NCBI RefSeq assembly: GCF_003001955.1
Contig: NZ_PVNH01000002.1
Coordinates: 248,001-312,000, forward strand
Length of the DNA: 64,000 nt
Source of the DNA: Prauserella shujinwangii
GTDB taxonomy: Bacteria > Actinomycetota > Actinomycetes > Mycobacteriales > Pseudonocardiaceae
Direction of reading: 5' to 3'
A program made the position numbers and the translations under genes. The first letter of the stretch is position 1. Every line of letters begins with the position of its first letter. Positions 1-52,348 of this stretch are shown piece by piece. A model generated the notes under the pieces. It did not search any database. It saw only the letters and a program-made list of their open reading frames with translations, and was not told the DNA's origin.

Positions 1-327
1 GGAAGGCGCGACGGAGGGGAGCAAGGCCTGAGCCAACGCGCCTCCGAACGCGTTCCCACAGAGCAAGTTGAACGGCCGGAAGGCGCTGAGCAGCGTCCGC
101 CACCGTGCCACCATTTCGGGAAAGCCCGAAACGGACTCGTCCCACGGGGCCAACGCGTCAACGACGAACACACTGAATCCAGACTTCGTCAGCAGCCGGA
201 CTATGGGCCGGAAGAACGCACCACCGTCCCATTCCGGAAGCACCGGGGACAAGACCAACGCCAGCCGCTGAGGTCCAGCGGCCTCCGGCAGGAAGGCCGC
301 GGACCTCAGCTCGAGGACTCTGTTCAC
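1..327 (-). CDS. alpha/beta-hydrolase-fold protein, partial, nucleophile Ser replaced by Ala
   Basis: Read from a GTG at 327 leftwards off the window edge, giving 109 codons. The order of elements fits the alpha/beta-hydrolase fold: a first core strand (residues 22-27), a segment ending in VVD near 57, and a nucleophile-elbow sequence near 91-96. The elbow reads G91-N-A-F-G-G where the family has G-x-S-x-G, so the catalytic serine is an alanine (codon GCG). The GTG overlaps the stop of the upstream metallolyase gene as GTGA, so the two are probably translationally coupled. It could be a non-hydrolytic member, such as a C-C lyase or binding protein, or an inactive homologue. The C-terminal half lies outside the window, so Asp/His cannot be checked. 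Confidence 0.7.
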   Translation of the reverse strand, partial: MNRVLELRSAAFLPEAAGPQRLALVLSPVLPEWDGGAFFRPIVRLLTKSGFSVFVVDALAPWDESVSGFPEMVARWRTLLSAFRPFNLLCGNAFGGALAQALLPSVAPS

Positions 328-1310
328 CGGAAACCGGCCCCGGCCAGGTCGCGTGTGCCAGACCCGGCGTGCGACGTTCCTCCACCCCGGCTCGCGAGCT
401 CCCGAGCGGTGGCGAGACTCGTCCGGTGATTTCGAGCGACGCTCTTGCGATGCTCCACCGAGAGGTCGAACTGCCCGAGTACGAGATCGGGCAACGGCAG
501 CGACGGCTTGGACTCCGGGATCGAGCACAGGAGCAGATCAGCCAGCTCGAGGGCCGGACCGAGTTGAACACGTGGTCCGGCGACACCCGAGCGATCGAGG
601 TAGGCCAGCCACTGCTCGGCGATGAGGTTGCCTGGACCTTTGCCCATACCTTGGACCGCCGAGTCGATCCAGGTCGCTCCGGCGTCGATGGCACTGATCG
701 CGTTCGCCAGAGCCAGTCCGAGATTGTTGTGTGCATGCAGCCCAACACCGCCTTCGACCACTGCCTTCGTGGCAGCGACGAGTTCGGCGATCTCGGAGGG
801 TGCCAGGCTTCCATTCGAGTCCGCGAGGTAGACGACGTCACATCCGGCGTCCGAGCTGGCCGCGGCCAGTTCCACCACACGTCGCGCGGGCAACCGACTG
901 ACTCTGGTCAGGTTGGCCGACACCGTGAAACCGAGATCCTTCGCCTGGCGAATGCAAGCCAGGCCGGGATCGGGATCATCCGAGGGAAGACAGACCCGCA
1001 CGAGACGCGCCCCGGCTCGGTGCATCGCCGGCAGATCGTCGCGGTCGATGTTCTTCGGATGGAGAATCACGCAGACGCGGTCCGCACCGATCTCATTCGC
1101 GACCGCCGAGATGTAGTCGTCATCACCGCGCCCCGTCAGCCCCAAGGTGGGTATCGGCGCGAACGAACCTTTTCGGTAAGCGATCTCGATCCAATCGAAT
1201 CCCGACTCGACACTGAGTTTGGCGTGCTCGATGGCATAGTCGAGCGGAAATTCGAAGCCATTTCGATATCCACCGTCACGAAGCGTAACATCAATATTGA
1301 CGATATTCAT
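324..1310 (-). CDS. HMGL-like (DRE-TIM) metallolyase/aldolase
   Basis: A 328-residue protein of the pyruvate-carboxylase/HMG-CoA-lyase TIM-barrel superfamily. The N-terminus carries the DVTLRDGG motif (metal-binding Asp and catalytic Arg), and a later GLHAHNNLGLA segment supplies the two metal-binding histidines. Both are hallmarks of 4-hydroxy-2-oxovalerate aldolase, HMG-CoA lyase and related Claisen or retro-aldol enzymes. The ATG at 1310 was chosen because GAAAG lies about 10 bases upstream; an in-frame ATG at 1319 sits too close to it. It is the third gene of a leftward operon (NMO, YciI-ABM, this gene, hydrolase). The substrate is unknown; in this context it probably makes or cleaves a branched oxo- or hydroxy-acid. 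Confidence 0.85.
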   Translation of the reverse strand: MNIVNIDVTLRDGGYRNGFEFPLDYAIEHAKLSVESGFDWIEIAYRKGSFAPIPTLGLTGRGDDDYISAVANEIGADRVCVILHPKNIDRDDLPAMHRAGARLVRVCLPSDDPDPGLACIRQAKDLGFTVSANLTRVSRLPARRVVELAAASSDAGCDVVYLADSNGSLAPSEIAELVAATKAVVEGGVGLHAHNNLGLALANAISAIDAGATWIDSAVQGMGKGPGNLIAEQWLAYLDRSGVAGPRVQLGPALELADLLLCSIPESKPSLPLPDLVLGQFDLSVEHRKSVARNHRTSLATARELASRGGGTSHAGSGTRDLAGAGFR

Positions 1311-1371
1311 CGATACCATTCTTTCGGTAAGTAGAATGCTGTCGAGCTCGTCGTTGCGCTCGGTCTGGTAA

Positions 1372-1965
1372 CTATCTGCGCGGACTGAAAATCTTCTTCG
1401 TTCGGTACAGCCGGTAGCGGGCACTGTCCGTGGTTTGCGCGAATTCGCGGTAGCGCCGCACGAATTCCTCGTCTTCGAAGATCGCGGCAAACTGTTTCTC
1501 GCTGTCCCACGCGGCGAAATTGACCACGGTGTCCTGTTCCACGCTAGCGAGTAGCCGCGACCCACGGAACCCGTCCGCCGTTTCCGCGACGTACTGGACG
1601 GCGTCCCCCAGAAAGCTCAGTGTTCGGGGGGCGTCCTGCGTGGTCGCCACGTTGATGAGTAGGACGGGATCGGGCGCGTTACCGCACGTGACCACACCGG
1701 GACTGATGTGAGCAGCTGCGAACGCGGTGGTCTGGTAGTCGACCAGACCCGCCGCCTGCCAAGGATCCGCAGAAATGAGCTCCCCGATCGTTTCCTCCGC
1801 GAGGTCGGCCGTGACGATGACCGCACCCTGTCCGTCTCGCGTAGGACCCGCTACGAGGAAATTGCCGTTGTCAAAATTCTTTCGTAGCCATTCCCGGTGA
1901 TCGGCCAGCCGATCCTCCAGCACGACACGCGGAGCGCGGTACTCGACACGCAGGATGTGGATCAC
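1372..1965 (-). CDS. YciI-like domain fused to an antibiotic-biosynthesis-monooxygenase (ABM) domain
   Basis: A 197-residue protein with two ferredoxin-like (dimeric alpha/beta-barrel) halves. Residues 1-95 resemble YciI proteins (RVEYRAPR start, FLVAGPTRDGQGAVIV core). Residues 100-190 resemble ABM monooxygenases (VLLINVATT start, VNFAAWDSE). Such folds act as small cofactorless monooxygenases, lactone isomerases or dehydratase-like enzymes. The GTG at 1965 overlaps the stop of the upstream nitronate-monooxygenase-like gene as GTGA and has a purine-rich GGGGGAA upstream, so the two are coupled. The fusion would form a pseudo-dimer in one chain. Its role in the pathway is not known. Confidence 0.8.
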   Translation of the reverse strand: MIHILRVEYRAPRVVLEDRLADHREWLRKNFDNGNFLVAGPTRDGQGAVIVTADLAEETIGELISADPWQAAGLVDYQTTAFAAAHISPGVVTCGNAPDPVLLINVATTQDAPRTLSFLGDAVQYVAETADGFRGSRLLASVEQDTVVNFAAWDSEKQFAAIFEDEEFVRRYREFAQTTDSARYRLYRTKKIFSPRR

Positions 1966-2969
1966 GATTCCCCCGCGTGGATCAGGTTTGTCGCCGTCTC
2001 GCCACTGCTCAGCCTGTGCAGTACGGCCATCGCTTCGCCGACGATGTCTCGCACGACGGCACCCGCGGGCCGCACGTCGGAAACCAGATCGACGACCTCA
2101 CCCGCGAGCATCTGACGCTGTGTCACGTCGTCTTCTTCGACCGCCCTCGACCACGACGATTCGAGTTCGGCACGTCTGGCCGACAATTCCGCCTCGCGTC
2201 CCGTCCAGCGACGGGTGAAGTCATTCGCCACCGCGCGTGCCCGATAACGGTGGTCCCACGGGATACCACGCACGATGTCGAACACCCTGGTCACCACGGT
2301 GTCCGCGGCACCGGCGCGCAAGAGAACGCGCACCGTACCAGGACTGGCGAGGGACTCGTCCGTCGCCACGAACCTCGTGCCGAGCATGACCCCGTCGGCC
2401 CCCAGCGCGAGACACGCCGCGAGACCTCGCCCGTCGCAGACACCGCCTGCCGCGATGACGGGCACCGCATCGCCCACTCGGTCGACTACAGCCGGAATCA
2501 GCGGCAGCGAAGCACGTTCCTTGTGATGGCCGCCGGCTTCGGCACCCTGGGCTATCACCATGGTGGCACCCGCGTCGACCGCCGTCACCGCCTGACCGAG
2601 GTCATGTACCTGCACCGCGACGTGCGAGCCCGCGTCCCTTGCCTGGCGGACATAGCGCCGAACCTGGCTGTCGTCGCCGAACGACAATGCGACGACCGGA
2701 GGTGCGAAATCGAGCACCCTGTCCCACAGACCCGGCCGATCATCGAAGGTGAACATCACGCAGCCCGCTCCCCAGACACCTCCACCCTCGGCTGCCAAAG
2801 GCATCTCACGTTCGACGAAAGCCGGATCGCCGTAGCTGACGCCAACGAGCCCCAGCCCGCCCGCGGCCGTGACGGCCGAGGCCAGGCGGCCCCCGGCGAC
2901 GGCGCCCATGGGAGCGGAGACGACTGGATACTGGATCCCAAGCAATTCGGTCAGTCTCGTCCTGATCAC
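1962..2969 (-). CDS. nitronate monooxygenase/enoyl-reductase-like FMN protein
   Basis: A 335-residue TIM-barrel flavoprotein of the 2-nitropropane dioxygenase family. It has the N-terminal PVVSAPMG segment, the AQGAEAGGHH motif with the catalytic histidine and FMN-phosphate contacts, and VIAAGGVCDGRG further on. The family includes true nitronate monooxygenases, FabK enoyl-ACP reductases and NADH:quinone reductases, so the reaction cannot be fixed from sequence. The GTG at 2969 has GAGGAG six bases upstream; an upstream in-frame extension is not coding-like. It is the first gene of the leftward operon that runs off the left edge. Confidence 0.88.
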   Translation of the reverse strand: MIRTRLTELLGIQYPVVSAPMGAVAGGRLASAVTAAGGLGLVGVSYGDPAFVEREMPLAAEGGGVWGAGCVMFTFDDRPGLWDRVLDFAPPVVALSFGDDSQVRRYVRQARDAGSHVAVQVHDLGQAVTAVDAGATMVIAQGAEAGGHHKERASLPLIPAVVDRVGDAVPVIAAGGVCDGRGLAACLALGADGVMLGTRFVATDESLASPGTVRVLLRAGAADTVVTRVFDIVRGIPWDHRYRARAVANDFTRRWTGREAELSARRAELESSWSRAVEEDDVTQRQMLAGEVVDLVSDVRPAGAVVRDIVGEAMAVLHRLSSGETATNLIHAGES

Positions 2970-3082
2970 GCATGCTCCTCGATCGGATGTTCGCGAGTTG
3001 AGTGGGCGAATGGACCGCGCCATCGCGGAAACAGCCGCAGAATGCGTAAGGCGGCTTCTTTCGACATTCGCTGACCGGATGG

Positions 3083-3240: not shown

Positions 3241-4662
3241 TTACGACAGCTGCGCCGCCGCGTGGCTTCCGGCGATGCGGCCGAACGTGAGTGAGCGGAG
3301 CACTGACGTGGCCGGCGGATACTCGTGGTAGAAGAGCCCGGTGATCTCCCCAGCCGCGTACAACCCGGGAACCGGGATGCCCGCAGGGGTCACCACCCTG
3401 GCGTCGACATCGGTGCGGACTCCGCCGTAGGTGAAGCAGATCGCCGCGGTCAGCGGAATGCCGATGAACGGTGGAGTGTCCAGCGGAACGGCCCAGTTGC
3501 TCTTCGGCGGCACGAGCCCGATCGTGCTCTTGCCGTCCATGCGGGTGTGGTCGAACTCGCCGGGCCCGGTCGCGGCGTTGAACTCGGCGACCGTCTTCTC
3601 GACCGCCTCCGGTTCCAGGCCGAGCTTCCGGGCGAGCTCGCTCAGCGAATCCGCCTGTTCCGGCGGAACGTCACTGAGCAGGGCGTTTTCGATCCCGGGA
3701 ATCGCCAGTGTCTTGGCGTCCGCGATCCAGTACGCCTCCTGGTTCTGGTGCCGCCAGATCTCGTATCCGACCAGCTCGAACGTGTTGTCCCAGGTGTCCT
3801 TGCCCTCGTCGAAGAAGCGCTCCGCCTTGCCGTTGACGAAGATCCCGCCGATGTAGCCGTACAACACGGCGTCGGCGGACGTCGTACGCCGGTCGACCGG
3901 CTCGGCGTGGATCATGTCGAACTGTCCCGCGGTGTCCGCACCCACCTCGGTCGCCATCCGGATTCCGTCACCCCGGTTGTACGCGATGCCCGGCGCGATG
4001 AGCGGCAGGTCGCACGCCTGGTTCCCGAGGTAGCGCGTGAGCATCTCCGGGTTCCCCTCGAAGCCGCCACAGGCGAGCACCACCGCCTGACTACCGAGCA
4101 GCTTCAGCCGACCGTCGTTGCCTCGGACCACGACGCCGTTCACCGCTCCGTCGTCCGTGGTCGCCAGCCGCACGGCCTCCGTCTCGAAGTACACGTCGAC
4201 GTTGTTGTGCCGATCGAGTGCCGCCGACAGCGTGGAGACGATCGCCGCACCGCCGCCCTTCGGGTTTCCGGGTGGCGTCATCCGCGCGGTCCCACCGTCG
4301 AAGGTGTGAGCGATGGGAAACTCGTTGAACACCAGTTCGACGCCGTGTTCCTCGATGAACTTCAGGGTCGCGGGAACCTCGCGTTCCAGCGTTTTGCAGT
4401 AGTCGTAGTCGGAAAGGCCGCCCGACACTCGTTTGACGTGGTCGGGCCAGTCCGGGTCGAGCTTGCGCTCCTCGGTGATGCGCAGGAATGCGCCGGTCCA
4501 CCGGGTCGCCCCGCCGCGTTCGGATTCCGGCGATCGCTCGAGCAGGGCGACGCGGGCCGGGCTCGGGCGTTCGGCGGTGGCCTCTGCGAAGCTCAGAGCC
4601 GCGGCAAGCCCCGCGGCGCCGGAACCGATCACGACGAGGTCGTAGTTTTGCGTGGGTTGCAT
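3241..4662 (-). CDS. FAD-dependent dehydrogenase, fumarate-reductase/TcuA/KstD superfamily
   Basis: A 473-residue soluble flavoprotein. The dinucleotide-binding GSGAAG motif is at 13-18, a GGATRWTGAF segment follows, and the C-terminus has the GLYAAGE and FGRIAGSHAA motifs that close the FAD site in succinate dehydrogenase/fumarate reductase flavoproteins. Length and the AGE...YPP...FGRIAG layout are most like tricarballylate dehydrogenase TcuA; 3-ketosteroid dehydrogenases are a second possibility. The start at 4662 has AAGGAG six bases upstream, while an in-frame ATG at 4683 would place that Shine-Dalgarno inside the gene. It is last in a three-gene operon after a 2-hydroxyacid dehydrogenase and an ALDH. 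It may dehydrogenate a di- or tricarboxylate feeding the neighbouring CoA pathway. Confidence 0.85.
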   Translation of the reverse strand: MQPTQNYDLVVIGSGAAGLAAALSFAEATAERPSPARVALLERSPESERGGATRWTGAFLRITEERKLDPDWPDHVKRVSGGLSDYDYCKTLEREVPATLKFIEEHGVELVFNEFPIAHTFDGGTARMTPPGNPKGGGAAIVSTLSAALDRHNNVDVYFETEAVRLATTDDGAVNGVVVRGNDGRLKLLGSQAVVLACGGFEGNPEMLTRYLGNQACDLPLIAPGIAYNRGDGIRMATEVGADTAGQFDMIHAEPVDRRTTSADAVLYGYIGGIFVNGKAERFFDEGKDTWDNTFELVGYEIWRHQNQEAYWIADAKTLAIPGIENALLSDVPPEQADSLSELARKLGLEPEAVEKTVAEFNAATGPGEFDHTRMDGKSTIGLVPPKSNWAVPLDTPPFIGIPLTAAICFTYGGVRTDVDARVVTPAGIPVPGLYAAGEITGLFYHEYPPATSVLRSLTFGRIAGSHAAAQLS

Positions 4663-4715
4663 GGCTGTCTCCTTTGTCGCCATTGACAAGGGCAAGGTGG
4701 GGACGAGTTGGCGTG

Positions 4716-6191
4716 TCAGCGCAGGACGAAGGGATCGGCCATCGGTTCCGCACTGGACTCGAACCAGATGGACTTGGGCTGGGTGAACTCCGCGAAGCCG
4801 TCGATTCCGTTCTCCCGGCCGTAACCGCTGTTCTTGGTGCCGCCGAACGGAGTGCCGTAGTGCAGTGCCCGGTAGGTGTTGACCCACACGGTTCCCGCTT
4901 CGAGACTGCGTGCGACCCGGTGGGCACGCCGCAGGTCCGCCGTCCACACCCCGCCCGCCAGACCGAACGGCGAGTCGTTCGCGATGGAGACTGCCTCCTC
5001 CTCGTCGCCGAACCGGATCACCGAGAGAACCGGCCCGAACAGCTCGTTGCGCGCCACCGACATGTCGTTGGTGACGTGGTCCAGGACGGTGGGCGCGTAG
5101 AACCACCCCCGGTCCGGAATCCGCGCGCCGGGCCCGCCCACCACCAGTTCGGCACCCTCACCGATCGCCTCGTCGACACGGCTTCGCACACCGGTGAGGA
5201 TCTTCTCCTGCGACAGTGGCCCCATCTCGGTGGCCGCCGAGGTGGGATCACCGAGCCGGATCTGCCTGGCCCGCTCGGCTATCGCCTTCACCAGCTGATC
5301 GGCGATGCGGTGGTGCGCGAGGAGGCGGGAACCGGCCACGCAGGTCTGCCCGGCCGCGGCGAAGATGCCGGCGAGAACGCCGTTGACGACCTTGTCCACG
5401 TCGACGTCCTCGAAGAAGATGTTGGCCGACTTGCCGCCGAGCTCCAGCACGGTCGGCTTGAGTCCGGACGCGGCCCGCTTCGTGACGGCGCGGGCGGACT
5501 CCGGACCACCGGTGAAGAAGATCTTGCGCGCCAGCGGGTGACCGACGAGCGCGTCGCCCGCCTCGTGACCGTAACCGTGCACGATGTTGAGGCAGCCATC
5601 CGGAAGACCGGCCTCCTTCGCGAGCCGACCGAGCAGGAGAAGCGACAGCGCGTTCACTTCCGGTGGCTTCACCACGACGGTGTTTCCCGCGGCCAGCGCC
5701 GGGGCCAGTCCCATCGCGCCGAGCATCATGGGCGAGTTGAAAGCCGGGATGACGCCGATGACGCCGTAGGGCTCCCGAACGGTCACCGCCAGCATCGACT
5801 CACTGTCGTGCGGAACCTGCCTGCCTTCCCGGTGATGGGCCAGGGTCGCGTAGTAGTGGTACCAGTTCCGCAAGGCCACCTGCTGGCCACGCACCTCGCG
5901 AATCACCTTGCCCGCATCACGTGACTCGAGCCCGGCCAGCTCGTCGGCGTGCTCGGCGATCAGATCGCCGAGTTTCCACAGCACTTCGGCTCTGGCACTC
6001 GGGCCGACACGCCGCCACGCGCCGAACGCCTCATGCGCGGCGGTGACGGCACGGTCGACGTCGTCCGCGCCGCCGCGCGCGATCTCCGCCCACGGCTCGG
6101 CGGTCATCGGATCGATCGTGGGAAGGTACTCGCCGGAAGACGGAGCCACCAGGGCTCCGCGGATCCAGTGGTCGTGTCGTTCCAGCCTCAT
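4716..6191 (-). CDS. NAD(P)-dependent aldehyde dehydrogenase
   Basis: A full-length 491-residue ALDH-superfamily enzyme that oxidises an aldehyde to an acid. The general base is Glu250 in LELGGKS and the nucleophile is Cys284 in AAGQTCVAG. The Rossmann FTGGPESARAV motif lies near 226-235, and the C-terminal FGGTKNSGYGRENG is typical of betaine/4-guanidinobutyrate-type ALDHs. The ATG at 6191 overlaps the stop of the upstream 2-hydroxyacid dehydrogenase as ATGA. Within the island it probably makes the carboxylate later activated by the CaiB pair. Confidence 0.92.
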   Translation of the reverse strand: MRLERHDHWIRGALVAPSSGEYLPTIDPMTAEPWAEIARGGADDVDRAVTAAHEAFGAWRRVGPSARAEVLWKLGDLIAEHADELAGLESRDAGKVIREVRGQQVALRNWYHYYATLAHHREGRQVPHDSESMLAVTVREPYGVIGVIPAFNSPMMLGAMGLAPALAAGNTVVVKPPEVNALSLLLLGRLAKEAGLPDGCLNIVHGYGHEAGDALVGHPLARKIFFTGGPESARAVTKRAASGLKPTVLELGGKSANIFFEDVDVDKVVNGVLAGIFAAAGQTCVAGSRLLAHHRIADQLVKAIAERARQIRLGDPTSAATEMGPLSQEKILTGVRSRVDEAIGEGAELVVGGPGARIPDRGWFYAPTVLDHVTNDMSVARNELFGPVLSVIRFGDEEEAVSIANDSPFGLAGGVWTADLRRAHRVARSLEAGTVWVNTYRALHYGTPFGGTKNSGYGRENGIDGFAEFTQPKSIWFESSAEPMADPFVLR

Positions 6192-7207
6192 GCCATGTCC
6201 ACCCCGCCAACGACGTCTCGGGATCCTCGCGGTCCCGGTGGGAACGCGAGCTCGCCGGGGCTCAACCGGAACTCGAGGTAGTCCTCGAGCTGGCCGGCAG
6301 CACCCTCCGCGAACTCGGCGAACGCTTCGCGCACCGTCCAGCCGATGTGCGGAGTCAGCACGACGTTCGGCAACGTGCGCAACGGTGAGTCCGCGGGCAG
6401 CGGCTCCTCGGCGAACACGTCCAGCCCCGCCGCACGCAGCGGGCCGTGCCGGAGGGCGTCGACGAGCGCGTCCTGATCGACGATCGCGCCGCGTGCGGTG
6501 TTCACCAGCACCGATCCGGGCTTCATCGCCTTGAGCTTCGCCCCGTCGAGCAGTCCGCGAGACTCCTCCGAGAGCCTCAGATGGACGCTCACGATGTCCG
6601 AGGTGGCCAGCAATTCGTCCATGGGCAGTCTCGGCACGCCGTCAGCGGGCTCCGCCCGCGCGCCGGAGCGAGCCCAGGCGACCACGTCCATGTCGAAGGC
6701 CTTGGCCAGGCGTGCGACCGCCGCACCCTGCAGACCCATCCCGAGTATCCCCAGTCTGCGGCCGCGGAGCGTCCCGCCGAGGATTCCCGGCCACTGACCG
6801 TCCCGCATGGCCTGCCCGGCGAGCGGGAAGTTCCGCAACGCGGCGATCATCAGTCCGAACGTCAGCTCCCGCATCGCGGCCTCGCACGCGTCGTGACTCC
6901 GCCACAGCGGAACCACGATCCCTCGCCTGGCGGCCTCGTCGGCGTCGATGTGATAGGCGTGGCCTCCGGTCTGCAGGATGAGCTCCAGTTTCGGCAGGCG
7001 ATCCAGCGTCGCGGCGTCGAAGCGAGTCCGCTCGCGGACGGCCAGCACTATCCGGACGTCGGCCAGTTCCCGGTCCGGGACGTCCGCGAGCGGGCCGTCG
7101 AGCACGGTGACGTCGGCGAGCTCTCGCAGCCGGTCGGTCCCCGCGGCTTTGCGTATCTGCCCCTCCCAGTCATCGAGAATGAGCATCCTCGGCCAGTCGC
7201 GACCCAT
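6188..7207 (-). CDS. D-isomer-specific 2-hydroxyacid dehydrogenase
   Basis: A 339-residue NAD-dependent oxidoreductase of the D-2-hydroxyacid/phosphoglycerate dehydrogenase family, interconverting a 2-oxo acid and a 2-hydroxy acid. It has the coenzyme-binding GILGMGLQG motif and the catalytic Arg-Glu-His set in NTARGAIVD, GLDVFAEEP and LTPHIGW. There is no C-terminal ACT domain, so it is not serine-pathway PGDH. The ATG at 7207 has GGAGG six bases upstream; the in-frame extension to 7312 lacks coding character. It is the first gene of the leftward operon and is divergent from the CoA-transferase operon. Confidence 0.88.
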   Translation of the reverse strand: MGRDWPRMLILDDWEGQIRKAAGTDRLRELADVTVLDGPLADVPDRELADVRIVLAVRERTRFDAATLDRLPKLELILQTGGHAYHIDADEAARRGIVVPLWRSHDACEAAMRELTFGLMIAALRNFPLAGQAMRDGQWPGILGGTLRGRRLGILGMGLQGAAVARLAKAFDMDVVAWARSGARAEPADGVPRLPMDELLATSDIVSVHLRLSEESRGLLDGAKLKAMKPGSVLVNTARGAIVDQDALVDALRHGPLRAAGLDVFAEEPLPADSPLRTLPNVVLTPHIGWTVREAFAEFAEGAAGQLEDYLEFRLSPGELAFPPGPRGSRDVVGGVDMA

Positions 7208-7421: not shown

Positions 7422-8645
7422 TTGTCAGGCGACTTCCTGCCCTTGCGAGGCGTCCGCGTTGCCGACTTCACCTGGGTCGGTGCCGGGCCGTTCATGACAA
7501 AGCCGTTGGCGGACCACGGTGCGGACGTGATCAAGATCGAGTCACGGGTGAAGACGGACGTGATCCGCGGCATGGCGCCGTTCGCGGAAGGTGAGCCCGG
7601 CGTCAACCGCAGCGGCTACTTCGCGAACCGCAACTCGAGCAAACGCTCCGTCTGTCTTGACCTCCGGAGCCCCGAGGGCCGCGAGCTCGCCCTGCGCCTC
7701 ATCAGCGTCAGCGACGTCGTCGCCAACAACTTCACACCGGGAACCATGGACCGGCTGGGCCTGGGTTACGAGTCGGCCAGGGCCGTCCGGCCCGACATCG
7801 TCTACCTCGACATGCCCATGCAGGGCAACACGGGACCGCACCGGGACCACCGTGGCTTCGGGCTCTCCATCGGCGCCGCCGGCGGACTGCTGGCCCAGAG
7901 CGGTTATCCCGACCGGCCGCCCGTCGGCACGGGCACGAACTACCCGGACCACGTTCCCAACCCGCTGCATGCGGCGATCGCGGTGCTCGTGGCGTTGCGA
8001 CGACGGCGCCGTACCGGGCACGGCCAGCACATCGAGCTGTCCCAGCTCGAGTCGACTCTCAACGCCATCGGTCCCGACCTGGTCGCCGCATCCGCCGGCC
8101 GTCCCGTCGGCAGACGCGGGAACGATGACGACCTGGCCGCTCCGCACGGCGTGTTCCCCTGCGCAGGCGAGGACCGATGGTGTGCCATCGCCGTGGTCAC
8201 CGACGAGCACTGGCACGGACTGGTCACCGCACTGGGCCGACCGAGCTGGGCCGACGACCCCGCCCTCACCTCAGCCGGAGGCCGACGAGCCGCGTCCGCG
8301 CGACTCAGCGAATCACTGCGGCAGACGGTGCTCGACTGGGACGCCGAGAAGCTCGCCGACACGCTCGCCGAGGCCGGCGTTCCCGCTGCGCTCGTCGCCG
8401 ATGCCGCATACCTCTTGTACAGCGATCCCCAACTGGCCGCACGCGGTCACTGGGTTTCCTTGCGGCACCCGGAGATGGGTGCGTGCGTCTACGACGGCAT
8501 CCCGTATCGCCTCTCACGCACTCCCGGGTCGCTTCGCTCGCCGGCCCCGCTGCTCGGGGCCGACACCCGCGCCGTCTGCACGGAACTGCTCGGCGTGGCC
8601 GACACCGAGTACGACCGCCTCGCCGAACAGGGAGTCGTAGGCTGA
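7422..8645 (+). CDS. CaiB/BaiF-family CoA-transferase, catalytic subunit candidate (BbsF-like)
   Basis: A 407-residue family III CoA-transferase, which moves CoA from an acyl-CoA donor to a carboxylic acid through an enzyme aspartyl anhydride. The N-terminus (RVADFTWVGAGP) and ADVIKIE are typical. The catalytic aspartate is Asp176 in NYPDHVPNP, just before the LHAAIAVLVAL helix. The TTG at 7422 is preceded by AGGAGG at 7412-7417, and no nearer ATG or GTG fits. It begins a rightward operon with hydratase, Zn-ribbon protein, thiolase and two SDRs. A second CaiB protein at 12373-13554 lacks the Asp, suggesting a heteromeric enzyme as in benzylsuccinate CoA-transferase BbsEF. Confidence 0.88.
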   Translation: MSGDFLPLRGVRVADFTWVGAGPFMTKPLADHGADVIKIESRVKTDVIRGMAPFAEGEPGVNRSGYFANRNSSKRSVCLDLRSPEGRELALRLISVSDVVANNFTPGTMDRLGLGYESARAVRPDIVYLDMPMQGNTGPHRDHRGFGLSIGAAGGLLAQSGYPDRPPVGTGTNYPDHVPNPLHAAIAVLVALRRRRRTGHGQHIELSQLESTLNAIGPDLVAASAGRPVGRRGNDDDLAAPHGVFPCAGEDRWCAIAVVTDEHWHGLVTALGRPSWADDPALTSAGGRRAASARLSESLRQTVLDWDAEKLADTLAEAGVPAALVADAAYLLYSDPQLAARGHWVSLRHPEMGACVYDGIPYRLSRTPGSLRSPAPLLGADTRAVCTELLGVADTEYDRLAEQGVVG

Positions 8646-8646
8646 C

Positions 8647-9450
8647 ATGACCATCGACTGCGAGATCGACGACCGCACGTTGCTCATTCGGATCAACCGT
8701 CCCGAAGCGCTCAACGCACTCGACGTCGCCTCCATGCGTGGGCTCAACGAGGCCCTGCGGCGCTTCCGGGATGATCCCCACCTGCTCGTGGCCGTGCTGA
8801 CCGGCAGTGGGGACCGCGCGTTCTGCACCGGCGCCGACCTGAAGCGCACGACGCCGGCCTCGGGATCGTTCGCCAGTTCCTATTTCGCGCCGCACGAGGA
8901 GAGCATCGGCGACGGCATGTACGTCCGGGCCATCACTCTCAGTGAGCTGCGTATTCCCAAGCCCCTCATCGCGGCGGTGAACGGCCACGCACTCGGCGCG
9001 GGCCTGGAACTCGCGCTCGACTGCGATCTGCGGATCGCCAGCCGGAACGCGACCTTCGGCCTTCCGGAGGCCCGCTGGGCGAGCGTGCCCGCCGTGGGCG
9101 GGGTTTCGAACCTGCTGCGATCCATCCCGCGTGCGGTCGCGATGAAGATGATCCTGACCGGAGACCGCATCGACGCGCGGGAGGCACACCGAGTCGGCCT
9201 GGTGAGTGACGTCGTGCCACCCGGCGAGCTCGTGGAAACAGCGCTCGCCCTCGCCCGGCGCCTGTGCGCCAACGGTCCGCTCGCCGTCATGAGCCTCAAG
9301 ACACTCGCGATGCGCACCGGTGACCTCCCGCTGAGTCAGTCCATCGCCATGGAGCAACTGCTGTGGGGTGTGCTCAGGGACACCGAGGACCGGATCGAGG
9401 GCAGGGCCGCGTTCACGGACCGGCGGACACCCCACTACCACGGCCGATGA
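8647..9450 (+). CDS. enoyl-CoA hydratase/isomerase (BbsH-like position)
   Basis: A 267-residue crotonase-fold enzyme. Both catalytic glutamates of classical hydratases are present, one in GAGLELALDCD and one in FGLPEARW, with the oxyanion-hole HALGAG segment. It should hydrate a 2-enoyl-CoA to a 3-hydroxyacyl-CoA. The ATG starts one base after the CoA-transferase stop codon. In bbs-type pathways the equivalent step hydrates phenylitaconyl-CoA; here the acyl chain is unknown. Confidence 0.9.
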   Translation: MTIDCEIDDRTLLIRINRPEALNALDVASMRGLNEALRRFRDDPHLLVAVLTGSGDRAFCTGADLKRTTPASGSFASSYFAPHEESIGDGMYVRAITLSELRIPKPLIAAVNGHALGAGLELALDCDLRIASRNATFGLPEARWASVPAVGGVSNLLRSIPRAVAMKMILTGDRIDAREAHRVGLVSDVVPPGELVETALALARRLCANGPLAVMSLKTLAMRTGDLPLSQSIAMEQLLWGVLRDTEDRIEGRAAFTDRRTPHYHGR

Positions 9451-9468
9451 GAACGGACGGAGACAACC

Positions 9469-9873
9469 ATGACCAGCCCACTACGCGTGATCGGCGCAGA
9501 CCGGGTCGACATCGAGGGCGACCAGGTGTCCTTGCTGATCACCCGGTGCCTGGACTGTGCGAGCAGCTGGTTCCCCGCTCGGGAACAGTGCTCGCGGTGT
9601 GGCGGCACGAGAGTCGATGGAGACCGGATCAGCGGGCAGGGAACGGTCTACGCATCGACAACTGTCCACATCGGCGCCGGTGCGTTTCCCACGCCGTACG
9701 CGCTGTCCTATGTCGACGTCGAAGACATACGTCTGCTCGCCCACACGCGTTCCGTTCGGCCACTCGCCCCAGGTACTCCGGTCGTCCTCGTACTCGGTGA
9801 GGTCGGCGCGGACGGCACCGGCGCGTTGTGGTCGTACGTCGCGGTGCCCCGTACCGATGGAGAAGTCGCATGA
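9469..9873 (+). CDS. DUF35 Zn-ribbon/OB-fold protein, thiolase partner (BbsA-like)
   Basis: A 134-residue protein with an N-terminal zinc ribbon (Cys27, Cys30, Cys41, Cys44; CLDC...CSRC) followed by an OB-fold acyl-CoA-binding domain (GQGTVYASTTVH core). Proteins of this family bind thiolases or SCP2-type retro-aldolases and stabilise or open their active sites, as in BbsA-BbsB and the Ltp2-ChsH2 complex. The gene overlaps the thiolase start as ATGA, consistent with a tight complex. Confidence 0.9.
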   Translation: MTSPLRVIGADRVDIEGDQVSLLITRCLDCASSWFPAREQCSRCGGTRVDGDRISGQGTVYASTTVHIGAGAFPTPYALSYVDVEDIRLLAHTRSVRPLAPGTPVVLVLGEVGADGTGALWSYVAVPRTDGEVA

Positions 9874-11012
9874 GAGAGGTCCATATCGCCGGTGCCGCGG
9901 TACACCCGTTCGGCAAGAGCCGCGGGAAGACCGCGGCCGACCTCGGGTACGACGCCGTCACACGGCTCCTGACGACAACCAGCATCGGGCCCGACCTGAT
10001 CGACGTCGGCTACTGCGGCTCCAGCTACGGCGGCTCCCTCCTCGCGCAGCGCGTGCTGCAACGCGTGGGTGTCTCCGGTCAACCCGTGTACACCGTCGAG
10101 AACGCCTGTGCGAGCGGCGCGTCCGCCCTGCACCTGGCATGGCAGGCGGTCGCCTCCGGAGCCGCCGACTGCGCTGTCGCGTTCGGCACCGAGAACCTGT
10201 CGGGGTTCGGCGGTGGCGCCCTGCCGCTGACCACGAACGACATCGAGATCGAACTTGGCCTCGTCATGCCTGCCGCCTACGCGATGCGAGCGCAACGGCA
10301 CCTGCACGATTTCGGCGCGACCGAGGCGGACCTCACGATGGTGTCGATCAAGAACCGGCGCAACGGCGCGGCGAATCCGCGGGCGCACTTCCAGGCGGAG
10401 GTCAGTGCCGACCAGGTCGAGAACTCGCGGCCGGTGGCGGATCCGCTCCGCCTTCTGCACTGCTGCCCCAACAGCGACGGTGCCGCGGCGGTGTTGGTCT
10501 GCTCCAGCGACCTGGCGAGGGAGATCGGCACGCCCACCGTGCGGATACGTGCCAGCGTTGTCCGGTCCGGCCGGTTCCACACGTCGTACCGCGACATGAC
10601 ATGGCCGGACATCACGGCTCGCACCGCGGAAGCCGCCTACGAGATGGCGGGCGTACGTCCCAGCGATCTCGACCTCGTCGAACTCCACGACGCGTTCAGC
10701 ATCGCCGAGCTGCTCCACGCCGAGGCGCTCGGCATCGCCGCCAGGGGCAAGGCCCACCGCGCCATCGCCGACGGGGAGTTCGATCGGGACGGCAGGGTCG
10801 CCGTCAGCCCCAGCGGTGGGCTGCTCTCCCGGGGCCATCCGGTCGGGGCGACGGGTGTCGTCCAGGTGTGCGAGACCTACTGGCAGCTCACCGGGCAAGC
10901 GGGCCGGCTGCAGGTACCGGCCGCATCGGTCGGCTTGACGCACGTCACCGGCGGGGGCATCTACGGCGTCGACAACGGTGCCTGCGCCGTCCACATTCTC
11001 ACCTCAGACTGA
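9870..11012 (+). CDS. SCP2-type thiolase/retro-aldolase (BbsB-like)
   Basis: A 380-residue thiolase-fold enzyme. The nucleophile is Cys80 in ENACASGAS, His273 lies in ELHDAFS and His323 in SRGHPVGATG. The second cysteine of biosynthetic/degradative thiolases (CxGGG) is replaced by Val359-Thr in VTGGG. That pattern is shared with SCPx/Ltp-like thiolases and retro-aldolases that need a DUF35 partner. It would cleave a 3-oxoacyl-CoA (or a beta-hydroxyacyl-CoA) to two CoA products. The ATG at 9870 overlaps the DUF35 gene stop. Confidence 0.88.
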   Translation: MREVHIAGAAVHPFGKSRGKTAADLGYDAVTRLLTTTSIGPDLIDVGYCGSSYGGSLLAQRVLQRVGVSGQPVYTVENACASGASALHLAWQAVASGAADCAVAFGTENLSGFGGGALPLTTNDIEIELGLVMPAAYAMRAQRHLHDFGATEADLTMVSIKNRRNGAANPRAHFQAEVSADQVENSRPVADPLRLLHCCPNSDGAAAVLVCSSDLAREIGTPTVRIRASVVRSGRFHTSYRDMTWPDITARTAEAAYEMAGVRPSDLDLVELHDAFSIAELLHAEALGIAARGKAHRAIADGEFDRDGRVAVSPSGGLLSRGHPVGATGVVQVCETYWQLTGQAGRLQVPAASVGLTHVTGGGIYGVDNGACAVHILTSD

Positions 11013-11023
11013 AGGACCGACAC

Positions 11024-11599
11024 ATGGCAGATGCGGTAGGGCGGGTCGTCGTGACCCCGGAGGGCAGTGTCACGGGGGCGGCCATCCGCGCTCGTCTGCG
11101 GGCCCAGGGGTGGGCGGTGGAAGCAGCGGCCAGCCGTGACCCGGACGCGCTCGTCTTCGACCCCGGGCTCCTCGACGACCCACCGGTGGTCCCACCGAAC
11201 CGGGTGGTGGACGAGTTCCTGGCGGAGTCTCAGCGGCACCACATGTCGCGCATCGTCGTCGTGAGCACACGCGACCAACTCGGCTGGTCGACGAGGCCGG
11301 AGCTCGCCGCTGCGGGCGGCGCGCTCGTTTCCGCCGCCCGCAGCCTGGCTCTCCGGCTCGCGCCGAAGGGAACAACCGTGAACGTGGTCGCGGCCTTCCC
11401 GCCGAGATCCAGCGCGTTGCGGGATGAGCGCACCTCGGACGCGTCCGCCGAACCGTCCGAACTCACGCCGGAGCCCGTCACCGCCGAGGACGTCGCGAAC
11501 GTCGTGGCGTTCTTCCTGCACCCGCGCAGTCACTACATCACCGGACAGGTTCTCTACTGCTGTGGCGGCACGAGCCTGCTCTCCAGTCTCTCCGTGTGA
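11024..11599 (+). CDS. degenerate short-chain dehydrogenase, non-catalytic subunit candidate (BbsC-like)
   Basis: A 191-residue SDR homologue, about 60 residues shorter than the family norm. The glycine-rich TGxxxGxG motif is replaced by TPEGSVTG, the NNAG motif is missing, and the YxxxK position reads as an Ala/Gly-rich segment with no Tyr or Lys. The C-terminal part (GQVLYCCGGTSL) closely parallels the tail of the adjacent intact SDR (GQVLYVCGGKSL). It cannot bind NAD or catalyse in the usual way. A catalytically dead SDR paired with an active one is the known architecture of BbsCD, the hydroxyacyl-CoA dehydrogenase of benzylsuccinate beta-oxidation. Confidence 0.8.
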   Translation: MADAVGRVVVTPEGSVTGAAIRARLRAQGWAVEAAASRDPDALVFDPGLLDDPPVVPPNRVVDEFLAESQRHHMSRIVVVSTRDQLGWSTRPELAAAGGALVSAARSLALRLAPKGTTVNVVAAFPPRSSALRDERTSDASAEPSELTPEPVTAEDVANVVAFFLHPRSHYITGQVLYCCGGTSLLSSLSV

Positions 11600-11612
11600 G
11601 AAGGGGCCAGTC

Positions 11613-12371
11613 ATGCATCATCTGGACGGCAAGGTCTGTGTCGTGACCGGAGCGGGTAGCGGAATCGGGCTCGCGATCGCCGGGGAACTCGCGAACAGCG
11701 GTGCGAGCGTGGTCGTGAGCGATCTCGTACTGGAGCGAGCCGAACAGGCCGCCAAGAGCATCGCGGCGCGGGGAGGGACCGCTGTCGCACTGCCGGTCGA
11801 TGTCGCTTCCCGCTCGGCTGTGGACGATCTGTTCGCCGAGACCGAGTCGGCGCTCGGTCCGGTCGACGTACTGGTCAACAACGCGGGAATCAGCATCGAT
11901 CGCGGAGTCCGCCGGATCACCGACGAGGAATGGCAGCGGACGCTGGACATCAACCTCACCGGTGTCTTCCTGTGCGCGCAGGCCGCGGCACGGTCGATGG
12001 TGCCCCGGCGCCAAGGACGCATCATCAACATCGCGTCCCGGGCGTGGCTGGGCTGGTTCGGGCAGTTGGCCTACGCCTCGTCGAAGGGTGGCGTCGTGTC
12101 GGCGACCCGATCCCTCGCGATCGAGCTGGCCAGGTACGGCGTCACCGTCAACTGCCTGGCGCCGGGTCTGATCGACACTCCGCTGCTCCGCGCGGAACCG
12201 CCCGAAGTCATGCAGCGGCTGATGGCCGCACAGCCCACCGGAACCTTGGGGTCACCGGACGACGTCGCGTGGGCGGCCCGCTTCTTCGCCTCTCCCGCCA
12301 GTGCGGCGGTGACCGGACAGGTGCTCTACGTGTGCGGAGGGAAGAGCCTCTACGCCCGCCCCGCCCGGTGA
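11613..12371 (+). CDS. short-chain dehydrogenase/reductase, 3-hydroxyacyl-CoA dehydrogenase candidate (BbsD-like)
   Basis: A 252-residue classical SDR with TGAGSGIG at 12-19, NNAG at 89-92 and the catalytic set Asn114, Ser142, Tyr154, Lys158 (YASSK). The ATG at 11613 is the start that directly precedes the SDR core (GKVCVVTGAG). It is the last gene of the rightward operon, and its stop is one base from the stop of the convergent second CaiB gene. It is expected to oxidise a 3-hydroxyacyl-CoA with NAD+, probably as a heteromer with the preceding degenerate SDR. Confidence 0.9.
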   Translation: MHHLDGKVCVVTGAGSGIGLAIAGELANSGASVVVSDLVLERAEQAAKSIAARGGTAVALPVDVASRSAVDDLFAETESALGPVDVLVNNAGISIDRGVRRITDEEWQRTLDINLTGVFLCAQAAARSMVPRRQGRIINIASRAWLGWFGQLAYASSKGGVVSATRSLAIELARYGVTVNCLAPGLIDTPLLRAEPPEVMQRLMAAQPTGTLGSPDDVAWAARFFASPASAAVTGQVLYVCGGKSLYARPAR

Positions 12372-12372
12372 G

Positions 12373-13554
12373 CTAGCCGAGGTCCCCGAGGCGGGGCGGC
12401 CCGCCTCGGGGACCGACGTCGAGTCCGGCGAAGCGGTAGGGCGGCCCGGGAAAGAGGATGGAATCGCCGTCCACCTCGATCGGCCGGAAGAAGCCACGTT
12501 CGGTGAGCTGAGGATTGTCCAGCAGATCCTCCGGAGTGGACACCGGGGCGATGCTCACCCCGTACCGCTGCCCCGCCTCGTAGAGTTCCCGCTTGCCCAG
12601 GCCGGCGGCGAACCCCTCGAACAGCTCGCGGAACACCGCCACGGCCTGCGCGGTCCGCCGCCACCGGAAATCGGACCATCGCGGGTCACGCAGCTCGCTC
12701 GCGGCCGTGACTCCCTCGGCCTCGAGCCACGTGACGAGGCCATCCCAGCCGAGTGGCCGGCCGCCGAGTCCGCATACCAGGTACACCCAACCGTCCCGGC
12801 AGGTGAACAGACCGGTACCCGCCTCCGTGGGCGCGTTGCCAACCCGGCGGCGCACCACGCCTTCGAGATCGACGTACTGAACGGCGTTCTCGAGCGAATG
12901 CGCCACCGATTCCTGCGCGGATACGTCGACCACCTGGCCGAGGCCGGTCTCATCCCGGACGAGCAGGGCGAGGAGCACACCGACCACGGCATGCAGTGAG
13001 GTCGCCACGGAACTCTGCGGTGGGGCCGGCCGCACCGGCTCCCGATCGGGGTCTCCCGCGAGCGAGAGCAGACCACCGGCCGCCAGCACGGTGAGGTCCG
13101 TCGCCGGCCGGTTCGCATACGGTCCGTCCAGGCCGAACGGGCTCATGGCGAGGTGGATCAACCGCGGCTGCCCGCGCAGCACCTCCGGCCCCAGCCCTCG
13201 CTCGGCCAGCGCCTCGGGTCCCTCGCTGGTCAGCAGAATGTCAGTGCCGCCGAGCATGGCGAGGAGCCGGTTCCGGTAGTCCGGGTCGGCCGGATCCAGG
13301 ACCACGCTCCGCTTCCCCGCCTCGGTGAAGGCGAACGTGGCGCTGGTGCCGCCCGGCAGAAGCGGGCCGGCCGTTCGCTCCGGAACCCCTTCCGGGTTCT
13401 CGATCCGGGTGACGATCGCTCCGAGATCCGAGAGCAACCTGCCCGCGTACGCTCCCAGCCAGTTCGTCGCGTCGAGGACGTGGATATCAGCGAGCGGTAG
13501 CTCTTCACGGGCCGACCGGCCAGCCTGACCCACTGCCGACAAGGATTCGTACAT
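12373..13554 (-). CDS. CaiB/BaiF-family CoA-transferase lacking the catalytic Asp (BbsE-like subunit)
   Basis: A 393-residue family III CoA-transferase homologue. Aligning the helix SLHAVVGVLLAL with LHAAIAVLVAL of the other CaiB protein places Ser181 where the partner has catalytic Asp176, so it should be inactive alone. The ATG at 13554 has a TAGCAT box seven bases upstream (13562-13567), pointing to a leaderless transcript. It faces the SDR operon and shares a promoter region with the divergent IclR gene. I infer it forms a heteromer with the 7422 protein. Alternatively it could use another residue or act on a different substrate. Confidence 0.85.
   Translation of the reverse strand: MYESLSAVGQAGRSAREELPLADIHVLDATNWLGAYAGRLLSDLGAIVTRIENPEGVPERTAGPLLPGGTSATFAFTEAGKRSVVLDPADPDYRNRLLAMLGGTDILLTSEGPEALAERGLGPEVLRGQPRLIHLAMSPFGLDGPYANRPATDLTVLAAGGLLSLAGDPDREPVRPAPPQSSVATSLHAVVGVLLALLVRDETGLGQVVDVSAQESVAHSLENAVQYVDLEGVVRRRVGNAPTEAGTGLFTCRDGWVYLVCGLGGRPLGWDGLVTWLEAEGVTAASELRDPRWSDFRWRRTAQAVAVFRELFEGFAAGLGKRELYEAGQRYGVSIAPVSTPEDLLDNPQLTERGFFRPIEVDGDSILFPGPPYRFAGLDVGPRGGPPRLGDLG
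12382..12413. terminator. bidirectional hairpin inside the 3' end of the second CaiB gene
   Basis: A perfect 14-bp stem (12382-12395 with 12400-12413) closes the 4-base loop GCGG. It starts 11 bases after the SDR stop and lies wholly in the last codons of the convergent CaiB gene. It can serve as terminator for the rightward operon while encoding the PRGGPPRLG tail of the other protein. Confidence 0.7.
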
Positions 13555-13636: not shown

Positions 13637-14461
13637 GTGAACCCCGCACGGCTTGATCGGGCCTTCGCTGTGCTCGGCTACCTCGCCAACCACCACGATG
13701 GCCGCAGCGTCAAACACCTCAGCGACGATCTGGGGCTGCCGATGAGCAGCACACACGACCTGCTCCAGGCACTCCTCGAACTGGGCGCCGTCCGGCTTGT
13801 CGGCCAGCGCAGCTACGCGCTGGGCCCGAGATCGATCGGGCTGGCATTGTCGATTGTGGATTCGGTGAAGCTGCGTCAGGTCGCACGTCCGTACCTGATC
13901 GAGCTCTGCGAGGAGGTCAACGAGAACACCTACCTCGCCGTGCGCAGCGGCGACGAGGTCGTGTACGCGGATCGATACGAGGCTTCCCAGCTGCTGTCGG
14001 TCGTGATCCAGCTCGGCGGGGGGCGGCCGCTGCACGCCTCCGCGGTCGGCAAGCTGATCGCCGCGTTCGATCCCGAGCTCCAGAGCGCGACGCTGACCGC
14101 CCCCCGACTCGAACCGTTGACCCCGTACACGCTGACGAACCGGGAGTTCCTCAGGGAGGAGTACGTCGCCATCCAGTCTCGCGCCTACAGCGTGAGCGAT
14201 GGAGAAAGCGTCGAGGGCATCATCGGACTGGCCACCCCGATCATGGACGCGAACGGAGCTGTGGTCGCGGCCGTGCACATCTCCGCGCCGCGGGGCCGGT
14301 TGTCCCCCGACAGGTGCCCGGTCGTGCTCACCCAGATGCTGCGGACAGGCGCCCGCATCTCCCGGCAACTCGGCGCCCCCGCCGAGGCGATGCCCCAGCC
14401 GGACCTCGACGAGGTGATCGCACTGGAGGAGAAGCGGCGGAAGGAGAAGAGCGTCCACTGA
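13637..14461 (+). CDS. IclR-family transcriptional regulator
   Basis: A 274-residue IclR protein with an N-terminal winged helix (RAFAVLGYLANHHDG...HLSDDLGLPMSSTHDLL) and a C-terminal effector-binding GAF-like domain (RPLHASAVGKLIAAF, EGIIGLATPIMD). Such proteins usually sense an aromatic or short carboxylic acid and control the adjacent catabolic operon. The GTG at 13637 is preferred over an upstream in-frame start because a TACCCT box lies seven bases before it and the extra residues are not family-like. It is the only regulator in the island and the natural candidate for the dyads at 3083, 7273-7410 and 13555-13636. Confidence 0.9.
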   Translation: MNPARLDRAFAVLGYLANHHDGRSVKHLSDDLGLPMSSTHDLLQALLELGAVRLVGQRSYALGPRSIGLALSIVDSVKLRQVARPYLIELCEEVNENTYLAVRSGDEVVYADRYEASQLLSVVIQLGGGRPLHASAVGKLIAAFDPELQSATLTAPRLEPLTPYTLTNREFLREEYVAIQSRAYSVSDGESVEGIIGLATPIMDANGAVVAAVHISAPRGRLSPDRCPVVLTQMLRTGARISRQLGAPAEAMPQPDLDEVIALEEKRRKEKSVH

Positions 14462-51178: not shown

Positions 51179-52348
51179 TCAGCCCAGGGTCCCGCCGACT
51201 TTGACGTGACCCTTGAGCAGGTTGCGCGCGATCGTCCGGCGCTGGATCTCGTCGGTGCCCTCGTAGATGCGCAACAGCCGCAGCTCGCGGTACCAGCGTT
51301 CGATCGGCAGCTCCCGCGTGTAGCCCATGCCGCCGTGGATCTGCAGCACGCGATCCACGATCTCGTTGGCCTTCTGCCCGCCGTACAGCTTGGCGATCGA
51401 CTGCGCGTGCCGGGAGTCCATGCCCTGGTCCACCTGCCACGCGGCGTGCAGCACCAGCCAGCGCAGCGCCTCGATCTCCACCCCCGAGTCGGCGATCATC
51501 CACTGGATCGCCTGCCGCTCGGCGATCGGTGCGCCGAACGTCTCGCGGGTGTTCGCGTGCTCGATGGCCATCGACAGCAGCCGCTCGCACGAGCCGATGG
51601 CGTGCGCGGGCAGCAGGTACCGCCCCCGGCCGATCCACTGCATGGCGAGCGCGAAGCCCTGGCCCAGCTCACCGAGGATCTGCCGCTCGGGCACCCGCAC
51701 GTTGTCGAAGACCAGCGCGGCGGGCCCCCACTCGCCCATCGTGTCGATGTACTCGGACCGCCAGCCCATGTCGCGGTCGACGAGGAAGCACGTCACGCCG
51801 CCGTTGGCGCCCTTCTCCGGGTCGGTGATGGCGAACACCATGCAGAAGTCGGCCTCGTTGCCGCCGGTGATGAACGTCTTCTCGCCGTTGATGACCCAGT
51901 CCGAGCCGTCCTTGCGGGCGGTGGTCCGGATGGCCTTGGCGTCGGAGCCCGCACCCGGCTCGGTGATGGCGAAGCAGGACCTGCGCTTGCCCTCGATCGT
52001 CGGGATCAGGTACTCGCGCTTCTGTTCCTCGTTGGCGTAGAAGAGAATGTTGTCCGCGGAGCCGCCGAAGCGGAACGGCACGAACGTCCTGCCCAGCTCG
52101 GCTTCCAGCAGCGCGGTCATCACCGCGGACAGCCCCATGCCCCCGTACTCCTCGGGGGTCTGCACACCCCAGAAGCCCGACTCCTTCGCCTTCAGCTGCA
52201 ACTCGGCCAGCTCGTCGGAGGTGATCCCCGGCTGCCCGGCCCGCTCCCTGCGCAGTACCTCCTGCTCGCGGGGCATCAGCTCGCGCTGGACGAACGTCCG
52301 CACCCAGTCGCGGATCTCGCGTTCTTCGACGCTGAGGCTGAAATCCAT
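51179..52348 (-). CDS. acyl-CoA dehydrogenase
   Basis: A 389-residue FAD enzyme introducing a 2,3-double bond into an acyl-CoA. Family signatures are CFAITEPGAGSDA, GEKTFITGG and the C-terminal RIYEGTDEIQRR holding the usual catalytic Glu. It is monocistronic. A perfect ACTAAGC-N4-GCTTAGT dyad lies about 20 bases upstream of the start, indicating TetR control. Confidence 0.95.
   Translation of the reverse strand: MDFSLSVEEREIRDWVRTFVQRELMPREQEVLRRERAGQPGITSDELAELQLKAKESGFWGVQTPEEYGGMGLSAVMTALLEAELGRTFVPFRFGGSADNILFYANEEQKREYLIPTIEGKRRSCFAITEPGAGSDAKAIRTTARKDGSDWVINGEKTFITGGNEADFCMVFAITDPEKGANGGVTCFLVDRDMGWRSEYIDTMGEWGPAALVFDNVRVPERQILGELGQGFALAMQWIGRGRYLLPAHAIGSCERLLSMAIEHANTRETFGAPIAERQAIQWMIADSGVEIEALRWLVLHAAWQVDQGMDSRHAQSIAKLYGGQKANEIVDRVLQIHGGMGYTRELPIERWYRELRLLRIYEGTDEIQRRTIARNLLKGHVKVGGTLG

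Follow-up and report, generated by a model that had tools for sequence, protein, structure and literature searches.

Can the beta-oxidation logic of the bbs operon operate in an oxygen-respiring actinobacterium, and on which acid? Bbs-type enzymes are known from anaerobic hydrocarbon degraders, and the question is raised by a seven-gene module in Prauserella shujinwangii (GCF_003001955.1, NZ_PVNH01000002.1, positions 248,001-312,000), a stretch of 64,000 nucleotides that we call the window and to which all positions below refer. An earlier reading of this DNA, the original prediction, held that the module contains the same set of proteins as the bbs operon and degrades a 2-substituted succinate by the same logic. 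We conclude that in its oxygen-respiring hosts the module probably degrades a 2-substituted succinate, perhaps a 2-alkylidene or 2-arylidene one, by Bbs-like beta-oxidation, all of the reactions and the substrate class being predicted; what we observe is its gene content, the correspondence of its subunits, its residue patterns and its recurrence in other genomes.

Correspondence with the Bbs enzymes

Matches to Pfam and NCBIfam delimit six plus-strand genes (7422-12371) and a converging minus-strand CoA-transferase gene (12373-13554), the counterparts of BbsF, H, A, B, C and D and of BbsE, respectively:

7422-8645, plus strand: CaiB1, BbsF-like CoA-transferase subunit (TTG start; PF02515, 367 bits)
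8647-9450, plus strand: enoyl-CoA hydratase (ECH), BbsH-like (PF00378)
9469-9873, plus strand: DUF35/ChsH2-type Zn-ribbon OB protein, BbsA-like (its only NCBIfam match is BbsA)
9870-11012, plus strand: SCP2-type thiolase, BbsB-like (best PDB match BbsB, 7pxp_C)
11024-11599, plus strand: SDR1, a truncated, degenerate short-chain dehydrogenase/reductase (SDR), BbsC-like (best PDB matches BbsC, then BbsD)
11613-12371, plus strand: SDR2, an intact dehydrogenase, BbsD-like (best PDB match BbsD)
12373-13554, minus strand: CaiB2, BbsE-like CoA-transferase subunit (best PDB match 9fn0_A)

The profiles thus bear out the gene set originally proposed, namely a CaiB protein, hydratase, DUF35 protein, SCP2 thiolase, degenerate SDR and intact SDR facing another CaiB protein. 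The module is not unique to P. shujinwangii. We collected related loci in one pattern scan of 84,980 species genomes and kept the best 80 of 269 relatives, so that all copy counts are lower bounds; the trees draw on subsets of those 80 loci, and loci without a usable match were omitted. Among the best 80 are at least eight actinobacterial copies, from Arthrobacter (three, two of them in one strain), Kribbella, Nocardioides, Streptomyces and metagenome-assembled genomes (MAGs) of Mycolicibacterium (cut by the contig end) and of another member of the Actinomycetota. With the window and the genomes G112 and G145 these make at least 11 loci, and with two Rhodococcus opacus plasmids at least 13, all of them actinobacterial.

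The two CoA-transferases pair one to one with the chains of the solved benzylsuccinate CoA-transferase. Among all PDB sequences, CaiB1 matches chain B (9fn0_B) best, at 330 bits against 179 for the next, and CaiB2 matches chain A (9fn0_A), at 230 against 122. A quick tree search without bootstraps over 68 CaiB proteins (own-family CaiB matches below 80 bits left out) groups each of the two with its own 9fn0 chain, with the anaerobic loci and with a further set of clusters, group C; both clades score 100 in the Shimodaira-Hasegawa-like approximate likelihood ratio test (SH-aLRT), and the CaiB paralogues entered from the same genome fall outside both clades. At the position aligned to the Asp of 4ed9, which we take to be the catalytic residue, all 11 loci have Gly in CaiB1 and Asp in CaiB2, and adding the R. 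opacus plasmids makes it 13 of 13; the solved transferase shows the same split, with the Asp in chain A and none in chain B. The original prediction had assigned the loss of this Asp to the wrong partner, the second CaiB protein (12373-13554) instead of the first (7422-8645). Our E and F names follow the gene order of the anaerobic loci, on the assumption that the bbs genes are ordered from A to H.

The hydratase joins the BbsH-position hydratases of the anaerobic loci at SH-aLRT 90, with the genome's own ECH paralogues outside (a quick search without bootstraps), and both catalytic Glu residues are retained in 11 of 11 loci. In the DUF35 protein the CxxC...CxxC pattern is present in all 10 module loci read, and the NCBIfam BbsA model scores 47.4 bits against a curated cut-off of 250. 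The thiolase, the only one of its kind in the genome (the next own match is 35% identical), has BbsB 7pxp_C as its top PDB match at 289.6 bits against 211 for the next. It scores 317.7 bits with the BbsB model, whose curated cut-off is 750, so neither BbsA nor BbsB is reached at equivalog level, and homology to BbsB is backed by the PDB match and by a C-terminal signature, HxTGGGxxGxxxxxC. This signature occurs in 10 of 10 module thiolases and 15 of 15 of the anaerobic type, in none of eight from group C and in one of 17 other SCP2 thiolases (L031). In the thiolase tree, from which L037, cut by its contig end, was left out by length, the ten module sequences form one clade (100/100) adjoining the BbsB clade. 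Thiolases of about 50% identity adjoin a DUF35-like protein and a CaiB gene in L031, L146, L147 and L148, without a pair like SDR1 and SDR2; L146 and L147 also have, judged by eye, proteins resembling cytochrome P450 and ferredoxin there.

Among all PDB sequences SDR2 matches BbsD best (239 bits against 196 for the next), and SDR1 matches BbsC (50 bits), then BbsD (44). SDR2 retains TGxxxGxG and YxxxK, and SDR1 has neither the Gly-rich motif nor YxxxK in 10 of 10 module loci; in the window it is 191 residues long, against 250 for BbsC. Its tail is of the C-position type (ending SSLSV or similar) and distinct from D-position tails, so that the pair combines C-type and D-type tails as BbsCD does, without support from the SDR tree (again a quick search without bootstraps, with L037 left out). 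Read from these residues, SDR1 would be a truncated pseudo-enzyme comparable to BbsC. Among 15 anaerobic-type C-position SDRs, YxxxK is absent in L112 alone with the wider of two patterns, the narrower also missing L108, and the solved BbsC lacks it too; the Gly-rich motif is lost or changed in several proteobacterial members, and both motifs are kept in six of seven from Bacillota. With L088 set aside, the anaerobic loci group as a single clade in the thiolase tree (100/98) and within each of the CaiB clades, and from this we infer that C-subunit activity was lost at least twice, a picture that gene transfer could blur. An AlphaFold model of SDR1 (predicted local distance difference test 76.5) was set aside, since it matched general SDR folds (BbsD at a template modelling score of 0.57) and was not specific.

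The top PDB match of five of the proteins is their Bbs counterpart, in line with the set originally proposed. The outcome named at that time as fatal, each gene sorting with unrelated pathways, is not what the PDB searches and trees returned: the CoA-transferases pair with the 9fn0 chains, and the CaiB and ECH paralogues of the same genome stand apart.

The missing dehydrogenase and synthase

Two Bbs-pathway components are missing, as was noticed at the outset. The glycyl-radical enzyme profile PF02901, used here for benzylsuccinate synthase (Bss), matches nothing in the P. shujinwangii genome; across the nine genomes examined, seven have no glycyl-radical enzyme, and Streptomyces G152 (a family-level match) and the anaerobic comparison strain have one each. 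A BbsG-like gene, for the acyl-CoA dehydrogenase, is likewise found near none of the 13 module copies and in no module operon. With BbsG as query, the available stretches (3.8-37 kb each) of 12 of the 13 loci give no match, the sole match in the window (51212-52348) lies 38 kb from the module, and nothing appears within 12 kb upstream of the window or in 48 kb of Cupriavidus pBB2. The anaerobic loci, which include strains named Tol-M and Tol-SR, have the order A-B-C-D-E-F-gap-H where the contig permits, and of the 17 loci in which both neighbours of the gap are present, 15 have a BbsG-sized gene in it.

Across whole genomes, BbsG finds no match above 44% identity in eight of the nine searched, namely seven that carry the module and one group C Paraburkholderia; the ninth is the anaerobic comparison. 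Candidates for a BbsG orthologue in P. shujinwangii were rejected at 44% (L115) and 41% (window 51179-52348), the latter belonging to a protein family with matches at E 1e-120 in 43 of 60 genomes from the taxonomic family of P. shujinwangii. These values bear on the main rival, in which the dehydrogenase is encoded elsewhere and the substrate is a saturated 2-alkyl- or 2-arylsuccinate processed by ordinary Bbs chemistry; this is a sub-case of the Bbs-like reading, not exclusive of it, and we regard it as a serious minority possibility. Many such enzymes exist in actinobacterial genomes, and beside the 44% match of P. shujinwangii itself there are matches of 42-43% in G112, G145 and Kribbella and a 49% BbsG-like gene near the module of G374, a more distant relative (thiolase 66%). 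Against it, the matches of G112 and G145 are orthologous to the common enzyme at 51179-52348 (89-91%), the Kribbella match is related to it at 66%, Nocardioides, Streptomyces and Arthrobacter have nothing above 35%, and the 13 module stretches contain no such gene save the distant one in the window. On this analysis, a 2-alkylidene or 2-arylidene succinate would be the most economical substrate.

Several observations weigh against a Bbs-like beta-oxidation of such an acid. The nodes joining the module to the anaerobic Bbs clade for the hydratase, and to the BbsB clade for the thiolase (91/42), are weak, and no supported node unites SDR2 with BbsD. The DUF35 protein matches an archaeal partner protein (PDB 6esq, 34 bits) above BbsA (29.3 bits), and the best NCBIfam model for the thiolase is PRK06064 (319.8 bits), just ahead of BbsB. 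The active-site motif of the module thiolases, HDAF, is as in BbsB and is also present in several other SCP2 thiolases, so that it excludes aldolases only. The gene of G374 means that the absence of BbsG is not universal, and the substrate class is read from gene families.

A more general reading of the same genes is a beta-oxidation cluster for a branched monocarboxylic acid, its likeness to Bbs reflecting shared superfamilies. CaiB, ECH, SDR and thiolase are large families, and the scores stay far below the BbsA and BbsB cut-offs; the matching of the two CoA-transferase subunits to E and F with the Asp on the expected side, the C/D-type SDR tails, the thiolase signature and the dicarboxylate carrier in the operon of relatives nevertheless make it improbable. 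A steroid or bile-acid side-chain retro-aldol system of the Ltp2/ChsH2 or Sal/Shy type, which also pairs an SCP2-fold enzyme with a DUF35 protein, is very improbable, since the motif is HDAF and not the YDHF or YDCY of steroid aldolases (PMC12329534) and Ltp2 (6ok1) scores 112.7 bits against 289.6 for BbsB.

Proposed route and the adjoining flavoprotein

With the bbs operon of Thauera, Aromatoleum and Geobacter, which serves benzylsuccinate beta-oxidation, the module shares the one-Asp CoA-transferase pair, a hydratase, the Zn-ribbon protein with its thiolase and an SDR pair with one dead subunit (there BbsC itself); it differs in lacking bss and bbsG, in gene order, in IclR control, in its dicarboxylate carrier, in its shorter SDR1 and in having hosts with the haem-copper oxidase COX1, for which all nine module genomes examined gave a match and the anaerobic comparison G155 gave none. 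To judge by its sequences, the module works like Bbs, yet it is not the Bbs pathway, because BbsG, Bss and the curated cut-offs are all wanting. Among the titles and opening lines of abstracts listed for open-access PubMed Central, none describes a Bbs-like module in aerobic actinobacteria, and one may be in print elsewhere.

By analogy with the Bbs steps (PMC10818641), the dicarboxylate would be taken up by a MatC carrier, which is present in relatives, and a CaiB2/CaiB1 heterodimer with its Asp in CaiB2 only would transfer CoA to it from succinyl-CoA. ECH would then add water to an exocyclic double bond, and a complex of SDR2 with SDR1 as structural pseudo-subunit would oxidise the beta-hydroxyl. 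The DUF35/thiolase pair would cleave the 3-oxo thioester to R-CO-CoA and succinyl-CoA, the latter returning to the CoA transfer. The predicted 2-substituted-succinate logic fits this scheme and is strengthened by the dicarboxylate carrier in related operons. The double bond would either be in the substrate already or be introduced elsewhere; in P. shujinwangii an adjacent TcuA-like flavoprotein may introduce it on the free acid. That protein belongs to a group of genes running divergently from the module, and a regulator gene stands at the other end:

3241-4683, minus strand: flavin adenine dinucleotide (FAD) dehydrogenase, TcuA-like (best NCBIfam match tricarballylate dehydrogenase TcuA, 333.4 bits, cut-off 369)
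4716-6191, minus strand: aldehyde dehydrogenase (PF00171; best NCBIfam match HpaE, 474 bits, cut-off 638)
6188-7207, minus strand: D-2-hydroxyacid dehydrogenase, divergent to the module (PF02826)
13637-14461, plus strand: IclR-family regulator, start set by homology (PcaR/PcaU/PobR subfamily, 140 bits, cut-off 285)

Tricarballylate is a 2-substituted succinate, and our hypothesis is that the TcuA-like flavoprotein takes the place of BbsG. TcuA converts tricarballylate to cis-aconitate (a reference title cited in PMC10468695). The likeness to the tcuABC genes of Salmonella tricarballylate use lies in this flavoprotein adjoining the module, with a score below the TcuA cut-off. Fumarate-reductase-type substrate residues, tried as a guide to its substrate, are not conserved in the alignment (in flavocytochrome c3 numbering, as we take it to be), which argues against a simple succinate-type active site. 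In the window, in G112 and on the two R. opacus plasmids, the genes for the flavoprotein, the aldehyde dehydrogenase and the D-2-hydroxyacid dehydrogenase all adjoin the module. The first two lie on other contigs than the module in two Arthrobacter genomes, adjoin the E/F pair in G374 at 45-48% identity and, on pBB2 of Cupriavidus necator N-1, are separated by about 10 kb from a related set. The flavoprotein was rejected as a universal part of the module: of ten module genomes, four have it at 65% identity or above, G374 at 46% and G145 at 44%, and four give no match at E 1e-40. A copy at 67-68% lies within a different operon of G096, which is not among the 35 of 150 genomes with a thiolase match at E 1e-60.

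A fuller scheme, which we offer tentatively and think rather unlikely in all its parts, is an undescribed pathway, passed as a cassette among oxygen-respiring actinobacteria, in which an alcohol or aldehyde is turned into a 2-substituted succinate, the TcuA-like enzyme desaturates the free diacid (where BbsG would act on the CoA ester), Bbs-like cleavage yields acyl-CoA and succinyl-CoA, and the SDR partner was inactivated independently of BbsC. If the Bbs-like reading is right, Bbs-type enzymes would also serve oxygen-respiring hosts that lack the radical enzyme and so be independent of fumarate addition, the module would provide new models of BbsEF and BbsCD, and it would point to a class of branched dicarboxylic acids that actinobacteria degrade and for whose breakdown an undescribed route may await discovery. 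The module is directly testable, because R. opacus S8 and 3D are named strains with published studies.

Distribution, operon order and neighbouring genes

The module is rare and patchy among oxygen-respiring actinobacteria. At E 1e-110 its thiolase is found in five of 394 genomes of the class, of which only two, P. shujinwangii included, reach at least 66%. The operon order IclR, MatC carrier, CaiB2, CaiB1, hydratase, DUF35, thiolase, SDR1, SDR2 is seen in seven of 11 loci, the IclR gene adjoining the module in related loci as in the window, and the flanks mostly differ from genus to genus. A MatC-type dicarboxylate carrier is encoded in seven of the first 11 loci (both carriers scanned have a MatC_N domain, at about 199 bits). 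On the R. opacus plasmids the genes for the FAD protein, aldehyde dehydrogenase, D-2-hydroxyacid dehydrogenase and carrier run divergently to those from CaiB1 to SDR2, with CaiB2 and the IclR gene nearby.

Individual copies show local changes. The hydratase of R. opacus 3D pLP414 (L152, 19215-20014) matches as two pieces in different frames, is absent from the annotation table and looks frameshifted, unlike that of pLPS8. In G112 a transposase-like fragment, judged by eye, splits the operon between SDR2 and SDR1 (L029, 9711-10175). In G374 (L145, L162) genes for the BbsG-like protein, PrpF, MmgE/PrpD, an aldehyde dehydrogenase and, by eye, an alcohol dehydrogenase are scattered around the module. 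An alphaproteobacterial MAG (L088, 5271-10475) has a Bbs-like set in which the hydratase begins 18 bases after CaiB1, without room for BbsG; in the trees it falls on the actinobacterial side by its thiolase, CaiB2 and hydratase, and not by its CaiB1.

Group C, the clusters with E/F-type pairs from Burkholderiales and others, spans proteobacterial and Geodermatophilus loci. It shares the two CoA-transferase clades and a related hydratase with the module and differs in its thiolases and in having no C/D-like SDR pair that we could find; we know of no characterised member. Group C loci were considered as full bbs sets and rejected, the gap gene being MmgE/PrpD in the two loci scanned (L042 and L060); L047 has an acyl-CoA dehydrogenase in that slot.

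A second catabolic operon occupies window 1-3023 (minus strand) and continues into the 12 kb upstream (L032, 8885-12000). It encodes a FabK-like nitronate monooxygenase, a YciI-like protein, an HMGL-type aldolase, a hydrolase, an isocitrate/isopropylmalate-type dehydrogenase, an RraA-like protein, a DUF6282 protein and a LysR regulator; G096 (L161) has the operon too, there accompanied by a TcuA-like FAD gene of its own.

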